Source: Agromyces protaetiae
GTDB lineage: Bacteria > Actinomycetota > Actinomycetes > Actinomycetales > Microbacteriaceae
Direction of reading: 5' to 3'
Length of the DNA: 64,000 bases
Assembly: GCF_004135405.1 (NCBI RefSeq)
Contig: NZ_CP035491.1
Coordinates: 2,728,001-2,792,000, forward strand
In this document: positions 5,840-40,022 of the stretch, in pieces
Numbering within the stretch: the stretch's first letter is position 1
Layout: every line of letters starts with the position of its first letter
The notes under the pieces: model-generated
What the model saw: the letters and a program-made list of their open reading frames with translations, nothing else
What the model was told of the DNA's origin: nothing
Databases searched by the model: none
Position numbers and translations under genes: made by a program

Positions 5840-8313
5840 ATGACCGCACCGAGCAACGAGCCCACCGACCGCCGCATCGCCGAGCGCATCGAAGACGTCG
5901 ACGTCTCCGCCGAGATGCAGGGCTCCTTCCTCGAATACGCGTACTCGGTCATCTACTCGCGCGCCCTCCCCGACGCCCGCGACGGCCTCAAGCCCGTGCA
6001 GCGACGCATCCTCTACGGCATGACCGAGATGGGCCTCCGCCCGAGCGGCCGCACGTCAAGAGCTCGCGCGTCGTCGGCGACGTGATGGGCAAGTACCACC
6101 CCCACGGCGATTCGGCGATCTACGACGCGCTCGTGCGCCTCGCCCAGCCGTTCTCGCTGCGCGTTCCCCTCATCGACGGCCACGGCAACTTCGGCTCGCT
6201 CGACGACGGCCCCGCGGCATCCCGCTACACCGAGGCGCGACTCGGCGCCCCCGCCCTCGCGATGACCGAGGGCCTCGACGAAGACGTCGTCGACTTCATC
6301 CCGAACTACGACAACTCGCTCCTCCAGCCCGAGGTCATGCCCTCGGCGTTCCCGAATCTGCTCGTGAACGGCGCGAGCGGCATCGCCGTCGGGATGGCGA
6401 CGAACATGGCACCGCACAACCTCATCGAGGTCGCCCACGCGGCCCGGCACCTCATCGCGAATCCCGATGCGCCGCTCGACGAGCTCATGGAGTTCGTCCC
6501 CGGACCCGACTTCCCGTCGGGCGGCACGATCGTCGGCCTCGACGGCGTGCGCGACGCCTACGCGACCGGGCGTGGGTCGTTCCGCACCCGCGCGAAGGTC
6601 GCCGTCGAGCAGCTCACGGCCCGCAAGACGGGCCTGGTCGTCACCGAGCTCCCCTACCTCGTCGGCCCCGAGAAGGTCATCGAGAAGATCAAGGACGGCG
6701 TCAACGCGAAGAAGATCACGGGTATCTCCGACGTCGCCGACTTCACCGATCGCAAGCGCGGCCTGCGGCTCGTGATCGGCATCAAGACGGGCTTCAACCC
6801 CCAGGCCGTGCTCGAGCAGCTCTATCGACTCACGCCGCTCGAAGACAACTTCGCGATCAACAACGTCGCCCTCGTCGACGGGCAGCCGCAGACGCTCGGC
6901 CTCAAAGAACTCCTGCAGGTCTTCATCGGGCACCGCGTGCGCGTCGTCACGCGGCGCTCCGAGTTCCGACTCGCGAAAGACCGCAAGCGACTGCACCTCG
7001 TCGAGGGCCTCCTCGTCGCGATCCTCGACATCGACGAGGTCATCCAGGTCATCCGCACGAGCGACGACTCCGACCAGGCGCGCTCGCGCCTCATGCAGGT
7101 CTTCGACCTCAGCGAGGTGCAGTCCGAGTACATCCTCGAACTGCGCCTGCGACGCCTCACGCGGTTCTCGCGCATCGAGCTCGAGACCGAGCGCGACACA
7201 CTCCTCGCCTCGATCGCCCGTCTCGAAGAACTCCTCGCGAGCGACGCGCGCATTCGCGCCCTCGTCGCCGACGAGCTCGCGCAGGTCGCCGAGCTGCACG
7301 GCACCCCGCGCCGCACACTCCTCACCGAGGGCAGAGTCGTCACTGCGGCGGCGGCCCGCAAGGCCGCCGCGTCGGCGTCGCTCGAGCACGCGGATGCCCC
7401 GTGCCGCGTGCTCCTCGGCGCCACGGGCCGCATCGCCCGCGTCGACCGACCCGAGGGTGCCGACGATCTCGTCATCACGGTGCCCGCGCGGCGCTCCAAG
7501 CACGACGCCCTGCTCTCGGGCCTCGACACGACGAGCCGCAGCGAGATCGGGGCTGTCACGAGCCGCGGGCGCCTCATCCGGTTCTCACCGCTCGACCTCC
7601 CCGCGCTGCCCGCCAACGCGCCGCAGCTCGCCGCGGGGGTGCGCATCGCCGACTACCTCGGCCTCGCCGACCGGTCGGAACGCGTGCTCGCGCTCGTCTC
7701 GCTCACGAGCGACCGACCCATCGCCCTCGCGACCGCGCAGGGCGTCGTCAAGCGCGTCGCGCCCGGCGGATACCCCAACAAGCCCGATTTCGAGGTCGTC
7801 GCGTTGAAGCCCGGCGACCACGTCGTGGGGGCGGCACAGGGCGGCGACGACGACGAGCTCGTGCTCATCGCCGATGACTCGCAACTGCTCCACTTCCCGG
7901 CCTCCTCCGTGCGCCCGCAGGGCGCGGCCGCGGGCGGCATGGCGGGCATCAAGCTCTCGCCCGGTGCGAAGGTCATCGCGTTCGCGGCACTCTCCCCCGC
8001 CGAGATCGCCGATGCGGTCGTCGTGACCGTCGCAGCGACCTCCGACACCCTCCTCGGCGCCGACCCCGGTGCAGCGAAGGTGTCGGCGTTCTCCGAGTTC
8101 CCCGGCAAGGGGCGCGCAACGGGCGGCGTGCGTGCGCAGCGCTTCCTCAAGGGACAGGACGCGCTCTCGGTCGCGTGGGCCGGACCAGGGCCCGCCCTCG
8201 CGCTCGGCGCTGACGGGTCGGTGCGTCAGTTGCCCGAAGAGTTCGGCAAACGGGATGCCTCGGGCACGCCGATCGAGGCTCCTATCGCGGTCATCGGTCG
8301 ACGCATCGGCTGA
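5840..8313 (+). pseudogene. parC: DNA topoisomerase IV subunit A, frameshifted
   Basis: GyrA/ParC-type subunit of a type IIA topoisomerase, about 824 residues when repaired. The winged-helix segment and catalytic tyrosine (AASRYTE, about Y130) are present, followed by the GyrA-like beta-pinwheel repeats. The frame set by the ATG at 5840 is lost at 6041-6050: GLRP is followed out of frame by [11 protein letters not shown], which is continuous in a family alignment only if one base is restored. Everything before and after is intact, so this is probably a sequencing or assembly error. ParC with convergent ParE next to the sigma factor matches the topoisomerase IV locus of other actinobacteria rather than the gyrase locus near oriC. 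Confidence 0.9.
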
Positions 8314-8398: not shown

Positions 8399-10477
8399 TC
8401 AGGCGTCGATGCGGTCGCGGCTGAGCCCGCTCGCGCTGTCGATGATGAACTCCTTGCGGGGGGCGACCTCGTTGCCCATGAGGAGCTCGAAGACGCGGCC
8501 GGCCTGCTCGGCGTCGGAGACGCCGACCCTCCGAAGGGTGCGGTGGGCGGGGTCCATCGTCGTCTCTGCGAGCTGATCGGCGTCCATCTCGCCGAGACCC
8601 TTGTAGCGCTGCGGGGTGCCGAACTTCTTACCGCGGCGTTCGAGGTCTTTCGTGACCGCGATGAACTCGGCCTCGGAGTACGTGTAGATCGTCTCGTTGG
8701 GCTTCGAGCCGGGGTTCTGCACGACGAACCGGTGCAGCGGCGGCACCGCCGCGAACACCCGCCCTTCTTCGATCATCGGCCGCATGTAGCGGAAGAAGAG
8801 CGTGAGGAGGAGCGTGCGGATGTGGGCGCCGTCGACGTCGGCGTCGCTCATGATGATGACCTTGCCGTAGCGCGCCTGCGAGATTTCGAAGCTGCGCCCC
8901 GAGCCGGCGCCGATCGTCTGGATGATCGCCGCACATTCGGCGTTGCCGAGCATGTCGGCGATCGACGCCTTCTGGACATTGAGGATCTTGCCGCGGATCG
9001 GCAGGAGCGCCTGATGTTCGCTGTCGCGTGCGAGCTTCGCCGTGCCGAGGGCGGAGTCGCCCTCGACGATGAACAGTTCACTGTGCGCGACATCCGTCGA
9101 CCGGCAGTCGGCGAGCTTCGCCGGAAGCGACGACGACTCGAGGGCGTTCTTGCGCCGCTGCGTCTCTTTGTGGGTGCGCGCCGAGATGCGGGCCTTCATC
9201 TCGGCGACGACCTTGTCGAGGACGAGCGAGGTCTGCGCCTTGTCGTCGCGCTTCGTCGAGGAGAATCGTTCGCCGAGCGCCTTCGCGACGACCGACGAGA
9301 CGATCGCGCGAACTGCGGGCGTGCCGAGGACCTCTTTCGTCTGCCCTTCGAACTGCGGCTCCGCGAGTCGTACCGTCAGCACGACCGTGAGGCCGGCGAG
9401 GACGTCGTCTTTGTCGAGCTTGTCGGTGCCGACCTTGAGACGTCGGGCGTTCTGCTCGACCTGCGCGCGGATGAACTTGAGCAGCCCCTGTTCGAAGCCT
9501 GCGACGTGCGTGCCGCCCTTCGGTGTCGCGATGATGTTGACGAAGCTGCGGGCGATCGTGTCGTAGCCGGTGCCCCAGCGGAGCGCGATGTCGACGTGGC
9601 ACTCGCGCTCGACCTCGGTCGGCACCATCGCCCCGCCCTCGGTGAGCACGGGCACGGTCTCTTTGAACCGGCCGTCGCCCGTGAGCCGCCAGACATCCGT
9701 GATGGGCGCGTCGGACGCGAGGTGCTCGACGAACTCCGAGATTCCGCCGTCGAACTTGAAGCGGTGCTCCTCGCGCTCATCGCCGCGCTCATCGATGATC
9801 GTGAGGCCGAGGCCGGGGACGAGGAAGGCGGTCTGGCGCGCCCGCCCGAGGAGCTCTTCGAACTGGAACGCCGCGCCGCGCGTGAAGATCTGCGTGTCGG
9901 CCCAATAGCGGATGCGTGTGCCGGTGACGGCCTTCGCGACCTTGCCCGTGACCGTGAGCGAACTCGCCTCTTCGAAGGGGTGGAAGGCCGCAGCGGGCGA
10001 CGGGTCGCCCTTCCCGTCGTCGAATCGGCCGGGCTCGCCGCGGTGGAACGACATCGCCCACGTCTTGCCCTCACGGTCGACCTCGACGTCGAGTCGCTCC
10101 GAGAGCGCGTTGACGACCGACGCTCCGACACCGTGGAGTCCGCCCGAAGCCGCGTAGGAGCCCGACCCGAACTTGCCGCCCGCGTGGAGCTTCGTGAAGA
10201 CGACCTCGACGCCCGTGAGCCCCGTCTTGGGCTCGACGTCGACGGGGATGCCGCGCGCGTGGTCGCGCACCTCGACGCTGTTGTCGCGATGCAGGATGAC
10301 CTCGATCTCGGTGCCGTGCCCCGCGAGGGCCTCATCGACCGAGTTGTCGATGATCTCCCACAGGCAGTGCATGAGGCCGCGCGAGTCGGTCGACCCGATA
10401 TACATGCCGGGTCGCTTTCGAACGGCCTCGAGGCCCTCGAGGACGGAAAGATGACGCGCGGAGTAGTCGGAGCTCAC
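8399..10477 (-). CDS. parE: DNA topoisomerase IV subunit B (GyrB/ParE ATPase)
   Basis: ATPase subunit that partners ParC, 692 residues from the GTG at 10477. It has a GHKL ATP-binding domain (E41/N45 in EIIDNSVDEA, then GGLHGVGASVV), a transducer region, a TOPRIM domain (EGDSALG, DADVDGAHI) and a C-terminal segment ending in the GLGEMD region. A TTG three codons upstream is possible, but TAGGCT ends 8 bases before the GTG and SSDYSARHLSVLEG is a usual N terminus. It is convergent with parC, an arrangement that keeps the two subunits under separate promoters. Confidence 0.95.
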   Translation of the reverse strand: MSSDYSARHLSVLEGLEAVRKRPGMYIGSTDSRGLMHCLWEIIDNSVDEALAGHGTEIEVILHRDNSVEVRDHARGIPVDVEPKTGLTGVEVVFTKLHAGGKFGSGSYAASGGLHGVGASVVNALSERLDVEVDREGKTWAMSFHRGEPGRFDDGKGDPSPAAAFHPFEEASSLTVTGKVAKAVTGTRIRYWADTQIFTRGAAFQFEELLGRARQTAFLVPGLGLTIIDERGDEREEHRFKFDGGISEFVEHLASDAPITDVWRLTGDGRFKETVPVLTEGGAMVPTEVERECHVDIALRWGTGYDTIARSFVNIIATPKGGTHVAGFEQGLLKFIRAQVEQNARRLKVGTDKLDKDDVLAGLTVVLTVRLAEPQFEGQTKEVLGTPAVRAIVSSVVAKALGERFSSTKRDDKAQTSLVLDKVVAEMKARISARTHKETQRRKNALESSSLPAKLADCRSTDVAHSELFIVEGDSALGTAKLARDSEHQALLPIRGKILNVQKASIADMLGNAECAAIIQTIGAGSGRSFEISQARYGKVIIMSDADVDGAHIRTLLLTLFFRYMRPMIEEGRVFAAVPPLHRFVVQNPGSKPNETIYTYSEAEFIAVTKDLERRGKKFGTPQRYKGLGEMDADQLAETTMDPAHRTLRRVGVSDAEQAGRVFELLMGNEVAPRKEFIIDSASGLSRDRIDA

Positions 10478-10485
10478 GTCGACCA

Positions 10486-10491
10486 AGCCTA
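10486..10491 (-). promoter_or_regulatory. -10 of parE
   Basis: TAGGCT on the minus strand, 8 bases before the preferred GTG start; it overlaps the alternative TTG start, which argues against that start. Confidence 0.5.
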
Positions 10492-11001: not shown

Positions 11002-11738
11002 TCAGCTCGGAAGTGTGACGCCCGCGGCCGCGAGCTGCGCCGCGCGCGCCTCGGCCGCGTACCCGTCGACCACGATCGCCGGCTCGCCCGGCGCGTATTC
11101 GACGCCGGCGCGCGACGCGACCTCGACGAGGATCGCATCCGCGAATGCAGGATTCTTCGCGAGCACCGGCCCGTGCAGGTGCGTGCCGAGCACCCAGCCC
11201 ATGACGACGCCCTCCTGCCCGGAGCCGCGGCCGTTGCCCTCGCCCGCCACGATGCGCCCGAGCGGCGACGCCTCGGCCTGCACGTAGTCGCGCGCGTGGT
11301 TCTCGAAGCCGACGAGGTGGCCGAACCTGGGCGAACGGATGACGAGGTCGCCCGTCACGCGGGGTCCGGCGTGCGGAACTGCGCGACCCGGAAGGATGCC
11401 GAGGCCCTCGACGACGGTGCCGTCGGCGGACTCGACGCCCCAGCTCAGCAGTTCGTACCCCGTGCCGACCGCGAGGATCGGCACGCCCTCGGTGCCCAGC
11501 GACGGAACTCGTCGTGCATCGTCAAGAGGCGCGCGCGCGCGGCCTCGAGCGTCGAGTCGCTGCCCGATCCGACGACGATGGCGTCGACCCGATCGGGCAG
11601 CTCGCTCGCGTCTTCGACGCCGACGACGACGGCATCGTGGCCTGCCCAGCGGAGCCGCTGCGCGAGCACGGCGGCGTTCTGCGCGTCGCCGTTGGTGTCG
11701 AGGAGCGACGGCACGATGCTCAGGATCGTGAAGGTCAT
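11002..11738 (-). pseudogene. gatD: GatD-like glutamine amidotransferase, frameshifted and lacking the catalytic cysteine
   Basis: Partner of MurT; in Gram-positive bacteria the pair amidates the alpha-carboxyl of D-Glu in lipid II. The repaired protein is 245 residues. The frame from the ATG at 11738 breaks at 11493-11494, where restoring one base joins HDEFRRWA to EGVPILAV; this is probably a sequencing error. The expected nucleophile motif (G-x-C-x-G-x-Q) reads AVGTGYEL, so Cys is G92 and Gln is E96, while the partner histidine H189 (GTHLHGP) is kept. The start overlaps the murT stop by 4 bases. Without the cysteine, glutamine hydrolysis is unlikely, so the domain may be structural or changed in function. 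Confidence 0.85.
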
Positions 11739-13000
11739 TCGGCCTCCGTGAGTCCGAGGTGGGCGCGGGTGCGGCGCATCGAGTCGGCGCTGAAGACGAT
11801 CGTCTTGACACCCGACGCAGGAGCCGGTGCGGCGAGGAAGTCGTCGATCGCAGTGGGGAGGTCGGTCTCGACGCGGTCGATCGCGACCCCGTCGTAGGCG
11901 AGCATGAGCGCCGCTTCGTGCGCCTTCGAGCCGCTCACGATCGCGACGCGCCCGAGCGAGGATGCGTCGGCCGGCCAGAAGTAGGACGGGTCGCGCACGT
12001 CGGAGCCGATCGCGAAGAGGATCTGCTCGGTACCGGGTGCGATGCCGTCGACGTTGAGCTGGTAGCTCGCCGTGTTCTGGATGAGCACGAAGTCGACTTC
12101 TTGCCCGCGCACGGTGACGCGTTCGCCGCGCCCGAAGACGGCGGGGATCTCGCTCAACGCGCGGGCTGCGACATCCTGATCGAACCGCTCGCCGAGCGCC
12201 GCCTTCGCGGTCGCGTAGGCGGCTGCCGCGTCGACGCCGTAATGGATGCCTCGCGCGGGAAGCTGCACGTCGACGGATGCGTCACCGTCGCGCAGCACGG
12301 CCGATCGACCGTCGACCGCCTCGACCACGATGCCGTGGCGATCGCTGTCGCTCGCCAGCCGATCCTCGGCGGTGTCGGTGTATCCGAGTCCGCGCGGGGC
12401 GCCGTCGAGGACGGCCTGCGAGACGCCGAACCGCTTCACTTCGATGCCGTCGGGAACGCGCGCGGCGATCCGCTCGACGTTCGCATCGTCGGCGTTCACG
12501 ACGACCGCTTCGCGCGCGCGCCCAGCGATGCGGGCGAGCATGCCGACGACCATCTGCGGATCGTGGAAGCGGTCGATCTGGTCGACCATGACGTTCGTGA
12601 GGGTCACGATGCGGGCATCGACGCCCTGCATGACGAGCGCACCGTGGCCCTCGTCCATCTCGAGCACGGCGATGTCGCCCGGGACCCGCCCGCGCCAGTC
12701 GGCGCGCTCGAGGAGCGCCGAGGTGAGGCCTTGGCTGATGTTCGCGGTCGACGGGTTGGTGAACACCGACGCGCCGTGCGCCCGCAGGATCGCGACGAGC
12801 ATCTTCGTCGTCGTCGATTTGCCGGCAGAGCCCGTCACGACGACGAGTCCCTGCGGGAAGCCCGAGAGCGTGCGCTTCAGATAGCCGGGGGCGATGCGGT
12901 TGACGACGAGACCCGGAATCGCCGAACCGCCGCCCGGCTTGCGCAGCCGGGCGGCGAATCGGGTGAGTCTGCCGACGAGGATCGCCGGCGCGTATCGCAA
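11735..13000 (-). CDS. murT: MurT-like Mur ligase (DUF1727), divergent, no zinc ribbon
   Basis: A 421-residue Mur ligase-type ATPase. The N terminus carries the P-loop TGSAGKSTTTK (about 57-67) and the central ATP-dependent amide ligase fold; the C-terminal DUF1727 domain begins near residue 290. Two features are unusual. Canonical MurT has a four-cysteine zinc ribbon inserted in the central domain, and no such Cys cluster occurs here. The C-terminal motifs usually written KNPAGFN and SWIWDVD read QNTASYQLN and SYFWPAD. The TTG at 13000 gives the normal N terminus (MRYAPAIL) and lies 7 bases after rpoD, so the genes are probably cotranscribed rpoD-murT-gatD. Confidence 0.9.
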   Translation of the reverse strand: MRYAPAILVGRLTRFAARLRKPGGGSAIPGLVVNRIAPGYLKRTLSGFPQGLVVVTGSAGKSTTTKMLVAILRAHGASVFTNPSTANISQGLTSALLERADWRGRVPGDIAVLEMDEGHGALVMQGVDARIVTLTNVMVDQIDRFHDPQMVVGMLARIAGRAREAVVVNADDANVERIAARVPDGIEVKRFGVSQAVLDGAPRGLGYTDTAEDRLASDSDRHGIVVEAVDGRSAVLRDGDASVDVQLPARGIHYGVDAAAAYATAKAALGERFDQDVAARALSEIPAVFGRGERVTVRGQEVDFVLIQNTASYQLNVDGIAPGTEQILFAIGSDVRDPSYFWPADASSLGRVAIVSGSKAHEAALMLAYDGVAIDRVETDLPTAIDDFLAAPAPASGVKTIVFSADSMRRTRAHLGLTEAE

Positions 13001-13007
13001 GAGCGGC

Positions 13008-14417
13008 CTACTCGAGGTAGTCGCGGAGCGACTGCGAGCGCGACGGGTGGCGGAGCTTCGCCATCGTCTTCGACTCGATCTGTCGGATGCGCTCGCGCGT
13101 GACGCCGAAGGTGTCGCCGATCTGGTCGAGCGTCTTCGGCATGCCGTCGCCGAGGCCGAAGCGCATGCGGATGACGCCCGCCTCGCGCTCGGAGAGCGAG
13201 TCGAGGAGCGACTCGAGCTGCTTCTGCAGCATCGTGAAGCCCACGGCGTCGGCCGGGACGACCGCCTCGGTGTCTTCGATGAGGTCGCCGAACTCGCTGT
13301 CGCCGTCTTCACCGAGGGGCGTGTGCAGCGAGATCGGCTCGCGGCCGTACTTCTGCACCTCGATGACCTTCTCGGGGGTCATGTCGAGTTCGCGCGAGAG
13401 CTCTTCGGGGGTGGGTTCGCGCCCGAGGTCTTGCAGCATCTGACGCTGGACGCGGGCGAGCTTGTTGATGACCTCGACCATGTGCACGGGGATGCGGATC
13501 GTGCGGGCCTGGTCGGCCATGGCACGCGTGATCGCCTGGCGGATCCACCACGTCGCGTAGGTCGAGAACTTGAAGCCCTTCGTGTAGTCGAACTTCTCGA
13601 CCGCACGGATGAGGCCCAGGTTGCCCTCCTGGATGAGGTCGAGGAACTGCATGCCGCGACCCGTGTAGCGCTTGGCGAGCGAGACCACGAGGCGCAGGTT
13701 CGCGCCGAGCAGGTGGCTCTTCGCACGCTGACCGTCTTTCGCGACCCACTGCAGCTCGCGACCGAGTTGCGTGCGCTTCTCGGGCTCGCTCATGTGCGAG
13801 AGCTTCTCCTCGGCGAACAGACCCGCCTCGATGCGCATCGCGAGCTCGACCTCTTCGGCCGCGTTCAGGAGCGCGACCTTGCCGATCTGCTTGAGGTAGT
13901 CCTTGACGGGGTCGGCCGTGGCGCCCGTGATGGCGCTCGAGTAGACCGGGACCTCGTCTTCGTCGTCGGCGGCGCGGAGTACGAGCGCACCGGTCGGGTG
14001 CGGCTCCGTCGGAATGGGCGCCGCGTCCTCCTCGTCGTCGGCGTCGGCTTCGTCTGCATCGGCCACGACCTCCGCGACCTCGACGGTCTCGACCGCGACG
14101 TCTTCGAGCTCTTCGGGGTCGACCTCGGCGTCGTCCTCGAGCTCGTCGTCGGTCTTCGGCTTCGCCTTCGAGCGCGTCGCCGCCTTGGCGGTCGCCGTGC
14201 GGGGCGTCTTCGAGGCCGTCTTGGGTGCGGTCTTGGAAGCCGAGGTCGACTTCGCCGCAGCGGTCTTCGCTGCCGGCTTCGCAGCCGCAGCAGTCTTCGC
14301 GGCGGGCTTCGCCGCCGTCTTCGCGGTCGTCGTCGACTTCGCCGACGTCGACGCGCGCTTCGCCGGAGCAGCCTTCGGGGCCTCAGCCTCGGCGGCGGTC
14401 GCGGACTTGGTTGCCAT
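13008..14417 (-). CDS. rpoD: Principal RNA polymerase sigma factor (sigma-70, SigA/RpoD)
   Basis: Housekeeping sigma factor, 469 residues from the ATG at 14417, which has AGAGGT upstream. The first 145 or so residues are a low-complexity Ala/Lys/Thr stretch followed by an acidic region, both typical of actinobacterial SigA. Region 1.2 ([11 protein letters not shown]), region 2 ([40 protein letters not shown]), region 3 and region 4 ([13 protein letters not shown]) are complete, ending in the usual LRDYLE. It is followed at 7 bases by murT. A TATAAT box on the minus strand lies about 150 bases upstream. Confidence 0.97.
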
Positions 14418-14479
14418 ACGTTTTCGACCTCTCATCACCGTCGCGCGGGCGAGGCGCTCGAAGCGCCGGCACGTGCTGC

Positions 14480-14563
14480 GGGTCCGTGGATTTCGGACAC
14501 TACAAGGACCCATGTCAAGTCCGCTGCGATTCGCTGTGCGAATCCGGACGAGAACGGGTCCTT
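14480..14563 (-). other. Possible structured 5' leader of rpoD
   Basis: The very 5' end of the predicted transcript (14563-14556) is complementary over 8 bases to 14511-14504, and this second segment can instead pair over 6 bases with 14485-14480. A 7-bp hairpin (GATTCGC / GCGAATC, 14528-14544) lies between. Alternative folds are possible; no known riboswitch is recognised. Confidence 0.25.
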
Positions 14564-39321: not shown

Positions 39322-40022
39322 ATGGCGCAGCCGCTGCAGCAGCATCCGAGCCGCACCGCCCTGCCCGAGCATCGCTGGCCTGCCGTCATCATGCTGCTCT
39401 TCGCGCTCGCGCTCTACGCACTCCTGCCGGGGCAGATCCTGGGGCCGCAGCGCTACCTCGTCGTCGCGTTCGGCGTCGCGCTCATGGTGCCGCTCGTCGC
39501 CGTGAACCCGCACCGGCTGACCCGGCAGACCCGATGGAGTCGCGCGATCTCGGTCGCGTTCGCGCTCGGACTCGTGATCACCAACCAGGTCACGCTGCTG
39601 CTGCTGATCTTCGCGCTCGTGAGCGGCGGGCGGGATGCTCCGGGGTTGCTGCTCGGCGCACTGCAGGTGTGGGTGGTCAACGTCATCGGCTTCACGACCC
39701 TCTTCTGGGAGCTCGATCGCGGCGGACCGGTCATCCGTACGACCTCGGCCCGTGCCGACTTGCCCCCGCCGACTTCCGCTTCCCGCAGGACGAGGACGAC
39801 GACGCCGTCGCAGAGGTGGCGGCGAGGTCGTCCGCCGTGCGCGACTGGACGCCGCGCTTCGTCGACTACTTCTATTCGACGCTCTCGAACTCGATGGCCT
39901 TCAGCGCGACCGACGCAATGCCGCTCTCGCCGCGGTTCAAGCTCCTCATGGCGCTGCAGGCGTTCGGGAGCTTCCTGATCCTCGCGCTCGTCATCGCGCG
40001 GTCGGTCAACATCCTCGATTGA
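39322..40022 (+). pseudogene. Multi-pass membrane protein of unknown function, frameshifted
   Basis: About 233 residues when repaired. The first half has four or so hydrophobic helices (about 20-130) ending in FTTLFWELDRGGP. The frame breaks in a run of five C at 39763-39767; six C would join ARADLPP to ADFRFPQDE and give the second half, with DWTPRFVDYFYSTLSNSMAFSATDAMPL and a last helix (FLILALVIARSVNIL). The DYFYSTLSNS...TDAMPL pattern followed by a helix loosely recalls two-helix ion channel domains, but no selectivity signature is present. The damage is probably a homopolymer error. Leaderless start after TAGACT. Confidence 0.7.

Follow-up and report, generated by a model that had tools for sequence, protein, structure and literature searches.

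Group B peptidoglycan, in which the cross-link runs through the alpha-carboxyl group of D-Glu, is characteristic of the Microbacteriaceae, a large bacterial family with plant pathogens among its members, and the question raised by the locus described here is which enzyme makes the bond to this carboxyl group. In the titles and opening abstracts of a literature that was covered largely without subscription journals, no gene was named as responsible for this bond in group B peptidoglycan. In Micrococcus luteus glycine is found on D-Glu, and in Micrococcus glycine is joined to the lipid-linked precursors by an ATP-dependent route without tRNA. Within the family, a comparison table of related genera gives B-type peptidoglycan for nine of ten genera and an unknown type for one (PMC7033078); the wall of A. 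aureus AR33 is of type B2-gamma with diaminobutyrate (PMC5217419), and in Clavibacter a D-diaminobutyrate bridge connects D-Glu to D-Ala (PMC9603630).

The window, a stretch of 64,000 nucleotides of Agromyces protaetiae, contains a murT homologue and a gatD homologue whose product carries glycine in place of the catalytic cysteine. In an earlier sequence-only reading it was proposed that this pair could join an amino acid to the D-Glu alpha-carboxyl, GatD serving as a scaffold without catalytic function. Sequence, neighbourhood and structure comparisons were here used to follow up this proposal, and on their basis the pair is a strong candidate for the enzyme, so far missing, that builds the family's unusual wall cross-link.

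The MurT/GatD pair in the window

The pair is located on the minus strand in a position here called the slot, the upstream border of which is sigA, the gene of a sigma-70 factor (13008..14513, minus strand; Pfam Sigma70 regions 1.2, 2, 3 and 4), and the downstream border a gene for a parE/gyrB-like topoisomerase subunit (8399..10486, minus strand; Pfam DNA gyrase B and Toprim). The murT gene, encoding a Mur ligase-type ATPase (11735..13003 with approximate start, aligned part 11738-12985), was recognized by matches to Pfam Mur_ligase_M and MurT_C, to NCBIfam and to PDB entries. It overlaps gatD in the sequence ATGA, in which the gatD start codon at 11738 and the murT stop codon share bases.

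The Mur_ligase_M match of the window MurT reached 47.3 bits (cut-off 24, E 3e-12), and the C-terminal domain (MurT_C, PF08353) scored 20.6 or 23.7 bits in two scans against a cut-off of 25. The score with the NCBIfam MurT equivalog was 80.3 bits, far under the cut-off of 800, and the closest solved structures were the MurT proteins of S. pneumoniae and S. aureus (6fqb/6gs2, E 7e-20 to 2e-16). As claimed in the sequence-only reading, the P-loop reads GSAGKST, and QNTASYQLN and SYFWPAD are present as further motifs. With the numbering transferred via the PDB alignment, the position of S. aureus MurT D349 was invariant in all 17 rows of alignment A1, and the equivalent of the Mg-site Glu of S. 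aureus MurT (E108) is conserved, as is the MurT P-loop.

The 3′ part of gatD (11002..11508, minus strand) was identified by Pfam GATase_3 (47.8 bits), by two NCBIfam GatD models (88.7 bits with a cut-off of 450 and 70 bits with a cut-off of 400) and by alignment. Its nucleophile elbow reads AVGTGYEL and not Cys-Gly-x-Tyr-Gln; the catalytic Cys is thus replaced by Gly and the motif Gln by Glu, and the catalytic His (equivalent of H189) is present in the motif GTHLHGP. These changes, together with the kept His, had been noted before and were confirmed by reading and by alignment. Genome searches found no second MurT in the genome of the window, where a second intact murT/gatD had been named beforehand as a finding that would count against the proposal. 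A GATase_3 profile search of the same genome matched three other places and, on first inspection, did not recover the window GatD.

The open reading frame at 11002-11811 had been taken for GatD; GatD does adjoin murT there, but the reading frame is not the protein, due to a frame break of one base near 11495. The first third of gatD (5′ part, 11490..11738, minus strand, found by six-frame reading), which begins with the ATG at 11738, is in another frame than the last two thirds. In all 29 Agromyces relatives gatD is one unbroken frame, and in comparison with relative G053 the window shows one-base deletions at two more conserved places, one of them near 6040, where Pfam identifies a gene for gyrase/topoisomerase IV subunit A, and the other near 39760. 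Therefore, the break in gatD is probably a sequencing or assembly error, which is likelier than a real break. For the single-contig assembly of the window as such, indel errors are probable at these three places (6040, 11495 and 39760 in comparison with G053).

Extent of the cysteine loss

A close MurT was present in 58 of 60 Agromyces genomes, the exceptions being G040 and G050. The nucleophile Cys of GatD was absent and replaced by Gly in 30/30 Agromyces copies including that of the window (AVGTGWELLSW in relative G008), so that the check for Cys at this position in close relatives found none in 29/29. Both genes are under purifying selection in the genus, with a median dN/dS of 0.32 for gatD (406 pairs) and 0.18 for murT (300 pairs). 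As the same motif occurs in all 30 copies and gatD is under purifying selection, the loss of the Cys is not due to chance.

Across 42 genera of the Microbacteriaceae, each represented by one copy chosen from strong MurT matches, the nucleophile position was occupied by Gly in 36, Ala in 5, Ser in 1 and Cys in none, and the catalytic His was kept in 28. Among 30 further family loci, GatD was Cys-less at the slot in seven more genera (g145, g142, g118, g153, g137, g121 and g123). These 30 loci also include 11 of class D, 11 with a Cys-bearing GatD and L148, which gave no GatD. Here, class A denotes the Cys-less MurT/GatD pair of the type found in the window and class D a separate Cys-less MurT/GatD clade. 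Outside the family the Cys was kept in 33/33 distinct readable GatD sequences, with one more locus yielding no GatD, in an outgroup set that was chosen and is not complete (11 + 4 loci, with one repeat, L061 = L135, and 19 of 20 loci). In a MurT tree of 114 sequences built by a quick method, all 60 class-A rows form one clade (SH-aLRT 99), and the Cys-bearing family members fall among the outgroups.

The absence of a four-Cys zinc ribbon from MurT had been regarded as a further mark of B-type species. The ribbon is indeed missing from the window MurT, but in alignment A1 it is equally absent from the four MurT sequences that are paired with a Cys-bearing GatD. Its absence is for this reason not informative, and loss of the zinc ribbon was rejected as a B-type mark, in agreement with PMC6085368 and PMC6113224, the latter of which states that the MurT zinc ribbon is present in only a subset of bacteria; nor does the ribbon define the isoglutaminyl synthase.

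The slot behind sigA

Of 117 class-A loci, a total to which some genomes contribute twice, 115 have sigA next to the pair, and for the other two (L100 and L114) only about 500 bases upstream were covered. A parE-type gene is present in the flank covered for 87 of these 117 loci and is turned round in a few. In all sigA-linked pairs with a readable GatD the Cys is gone. No sigA was found in the fetched flanks of the outgroup pairs or in those of the 11 Cys-bearing pairs of the family (L139, L140, L142, L145-L147 and L150-L154). Among the latter, L151-L154 (g165 and g187) comprise divergent Cys-bearing MurT/GatD genes away from sigA, and of their genomes both that were checked for the slot, G501 and G523, have it empty.

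Class D consists of 11 loci of seven genera, in which MurT forms a clade on a long branch with a support of 100, GatD lacks both Cys and His, and the pair is beside sigA in 11/11 loci. The class-D locus L227 has the order sigA-murT-gatD-ATPgrasp-parE, which matches the order sigA-cofE-ATPgrasp-parE described below. Nine class-A loci have a racemase gene in the vicinity of the pair, and the racemase thus occurs near both the class-A and the CofE systems. Altogether the gene sets of the slot vary from the MurT pair alone to MurT or CofE together with one or two ATP-grasp genes, each with or without a racemase. In a reduced family genome of 0.93 Mb (L228; G459:C1, 927303 bases) sigA is likewise followed by the Cys-less pair, and a racemase gene is close by.

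Replacement of the pair by CofE-like and ATP-grasp proteins

In 398 genomes of the family, matches were counted at E < 1e-20 for MurT and at E < 1e-100 for the CofE-like and ATP-grasp proteins. With these thresholds 62 genomes had CofE only, 320 had MurT only (including Cys-bearing and class-D pairs), none had both and 16 had neither, some of these 16 being incomplete. The exclusion of CofE and MurT gave a Fisher p of 5e-58, a value that ignores kinship among genomes that are not phylogenetically independent. The expectation that the Cys loss would occur only in and throughout B-type species was not supported, since 62 of the 398 genomes have the CofE-like protein instead; nor does the loss extend throughout the family, in which 16 genomes have neither system and 11 of the loci read have a pair that is Cys-bearing and not linked to sigA. 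The notion that the pair is dispensable because a MurT-level match is missing in 78 of the 398 genomes was rejected, as 62 of those 78 carry the CofE-like protein. Both kinds occur within single genera, for instance Agromyces, g114, g116, g163, g182 and g184. Three weaker CofE matches (1e-37 to 1e-45) are located in MurT-bearing genomes, and two of them (G495:C1:613116-614389 and G561:C1:3454304-3455598) are divergent CofE-like genes adjoining a divergent MurT, a possible intermediate between slot systems.

For the analysis of the slot itself, sigA was sought in 30 genomes without a sigA-linked MurT and the region behind it was read in 26. Directly behind sigA a CofE-like gene (PF01996) was found in 15 of the 26 slots, 14 of these with an ATPgrasp_ST protein and 11 with an alanine-racemase-like gene. 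Eight slots were empty, with sigA and parE together and no ligase gene, and three, all of genus g4, contained other genes. Among named CofE loci, taken as the best 80 of at least 504 relatives, sigA is upstream in 79, and an ATP-grasp gene is present in 76, a parE-type gene in 68, a racemase in 43 and MurT in none. One of the loci read, L288, is labelled Stenotrophomonas maltophilia P13 and shows the Microbacteriaceae order sigA-cofE-ATPgrasp-parE, and because of this order the contig is probably a contamination or carries a wrong label. The ATP-grasp protein was matched in 68 of the 398 genomes, 56 of which belong to the 62 genomes with CofE and 12 to those with MurT, 6 of the latter having been read as class D; the match is missing in 5 of the 11 class-D genomes read.

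The three CofE-like sequences scanned were above the cut-off of PF01996 (28.8-50.1 bits, cut-off 25), and the score with the CofE equivalog TIGR01916 was 34.8 bits (cut-off 180.65). The predicted structure of the CofE-like protein (pLDDT 86.6) matched only CofE structures at E < 0.001 (2phn/7uld, E ~1e-7). The ATP-grasp protein scored 147-152 bits with ATPgrasp_ST (PF14397); no PDB relative was found for it by sequence, and the first matches of its predicted structure (pLDDT 89.8) were D-Ala-D-Ala ligase, RimK, ArgX and peptide ligases. Named relatives of both the CofE-like and the ATP-grasp proteins join amino acids by amide bonds. The slot is common to the pair and to other amide-bond ligases, without overlap at strong scores.

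Wall chemistry and gene content of the slot

The named CofE loci (best 80 of at least 504 relatives) include two from Leucobacter. As a B-type cross-linked wall is described for Leucobacter chironomi (PMC4511665), the CofE-like system occurs in a genus with B-type walls.

In named Microbacterium species the occurrence of the racemase was compared with the reported diamino acid (PMC10757982). The racemase is in the slot of M. testaceum (4/4 loci), M. proteolyticum and M. galbinum, for which D-ornithine is reported, and is missing from the slot of M. arborescens, for which L-lysine is reported. For M. radiodurans D-ornithine is reported and the slot is without racemase; for M. enclense L-lysine is reported, the racemase is present in one strain, and the slot of NIO-1002 is rearranged. 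The same source names M. radiodurans and M. enclense as exceptions within their clades, and their slots at odds with the reported diamino acid, or rearranged, are L274, L265 and L294. Four of the six species with stated chemistry fit, so that a tracking of the diamino acid by the racemase is suggestive only, and the racemase was not upheld as a simple D-ornithine marker.

Agromyces has one ligase in the slot and Microbacterium two or three, and these numbers may match the length of the bridge as given by the bridge formulas. Two tandem ATP-grasp genes, with no racemase found, occur in the slots L283, L282, L309, L239, L274 and L275, which belong to M. arborescens, M. oleivorans, M. saccharophilum, M. 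radiodurans and Microbacterium sp. 11MF and possibly indicate a longer bridge.

Proposed function and alternative explanations

From the comparisons of sequence and gene order, we propose with a probability of about 0.6 that the slot builds the bridge of group B peptidoglycan and that the class-A pair joins an amino acid, and not ammonia, to the alpha-carboxyl of D-Glu. The pair would then be a derived form of MurT/GatD, no longer able to hydrolyse glutamine, that acts as an ATP-dependent amino-acid ligase in group B peptidoglycan synthesis. MurT would phosphorylate the D-Glu alpha-carboxyl in lipid I/II, GatD would keep MurT in its active shape without ammonia being made, and the attacking amine would be that of the first bridge amino acid, putatively 2,4-diaminobutyrate in Agromyces. 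In other genera the same first step may be carried out by the CofE-like protein or the class-D MurT/GatD, further bridge residues may be added by the ATP-grasp enzymes, and the racemase may be the source of the D-diamino acid.

A precedent is available from S. aureus, in which GatD and MurT must act together and the GatD exchange C94G abolished the use of glutamine and left the NH3-dependent MurT activity at pH 8.5 unaffected (PMC3266927). As the ammonia-dependent activity persists, a Gly-bearing GatD is a plausible structural partner of MurT, and an amino acid in the place of ammonia would be the most economical reading of the pair. The central idea of the earlier proposal is well supported by comparison, with the Cys-less sigA-linked pairs, the single MurT, the other amide-bond ligases in the slot and the C94G precedent in its favour; its argument from the zinc ribbon fails, and that from a restriction to B-type species was not supported. 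Counting against the proposed function are the empty slots (8/26), the other genes in g4 (3/26), the genomes with neither system (16/398), the 11 Cys-bearing family loci, the three weaker CofE matches in MurT-bearing genomes, the Microbacterium species whose racemase does not fit the diamino acid, and the His kept in 28/42 genera without a glutaminase role.

A wider reading is more tentative, and we give it somewhat less than an even chance: three separately evolved systems, class-A MurT/GatD, class-D MurT/GatD and the CofE-like protein, would replace one another behind sigA in attaching the first bridge residue to the alpha-carboxyl of D-Glu, with the ATP-grasp enzymes extending the bridge and the racemase making the D-diamino acid, and MurT/GatD would have changed on two occasions from an amidase into an amino-acid ligase, in both cases through inactivation of the glutaminase.

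The alternative that survives best accepts the slot as a wall-bridge locus and assigns another bond to the pair, for example the addition of a residue further along the bridge or a change at a different carboxyl group of the precursor. The slot gene sets differ, and because of this the order of the bridge steps is not fixed by the data, which speaks in its favour; it is nevertheless unlikely, since the relatives of the pair act exactly on the D-Glu alpha-carboxyl of lipid II (PMC3266927, PMC6085368), and since searches of the window gave no match for a CofE-like protein, an ATP-grasp protein or a racemase, and those of its genome none for the first two.

Still less probable is that the pair has remained an amidase which uses free ammonia, MurT amidating D-Glu with NH3 and the dead GatD serving as scaffold only. 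The ATP site and the D349 equivalent are kept in MurT, and MurT/GatD-C94G of S. aureus amidates lipid II with NH3 at pH 8.5; however, C94G did not use ammonia at pH 7.5 (PMC3266927), yet the Cys is lost in 42/42 genera. Moreover, the B-type wall of Clavibacter has the bridge attached to D-Glu (PMC9603630), and the systems that replace the pair belong to families of amino-acid-joining ligases and not of ammonia users.

That GatD is a relic or regulator, in a pair without ligase role that is even broken in the window strain, would agree with the frameshift and with the strong drift of the GatD motifs in certain genera, in which even the catalytic His has disappeared, but is very improbable in view of the purifying selection in Agromyces, the finding of gatD next to murT in all class-A loci that were read other than L148, and the one-base deletions in other conserved genes of the assembly, that of gatD being absent in 29/29 relatives.

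With the amino-acid ligase reading, small and specific gene sets are proposed for the D-Glu alpha-carboxyl bond, and bridge chemistry could be predicted from gene content. The pair would offer a clear example of how an amidotransferase may have turned into an amino-acid ligase through loss of its glutaminase, and a role in the cell wall is proposed for the CofE-like and ATP-grasp proteins.

Comparison with known systems

The MurT/GatD lipid II isoglutaminyl synthase of S. aureus and S. pneumoniae resembles the window pair in its adjacent genes, in the Mur ligase ATPase with P-loop and GATase_3-type partner, and in the D349 equivalent and the triad His. In contrast to the isoglutaminyl synthase, the window pair lacks the catalytic Cys and the motif Gln, so that no glutaminase activity would be expected, it is located behind sigA, and its scores with MurT_C and the NCBIfam equivalogs are below the cut-offs. 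The CofE-like protein of the slot shares the Pfam domain (PF01996) and the predicted fold of coenzyme F420-0:gamma-glutamyl ligase (CofE), but the identity in the structural match is about 15%, and the protein sits in the slot, where it replaces MurT/GatD. The ATP-grasp protein shares the Pfam match of ATPgrasp_ST (PF14397) and has its nearest predicted fold among the Ddl/RimK-type ligases, from which it differs by its occurrence in one or two copies beside the CofE-like protein or a class-D MurT, a setting read as that of wall-bridge synthesis. The archaeal MurT-like and pMur ligases of pseudomurein are relatives of MurT in another setting; some archaea have a MurT-like protein without GatD (PMC11915815), whereas in the window pair a catalytically dead GatD has been kept.
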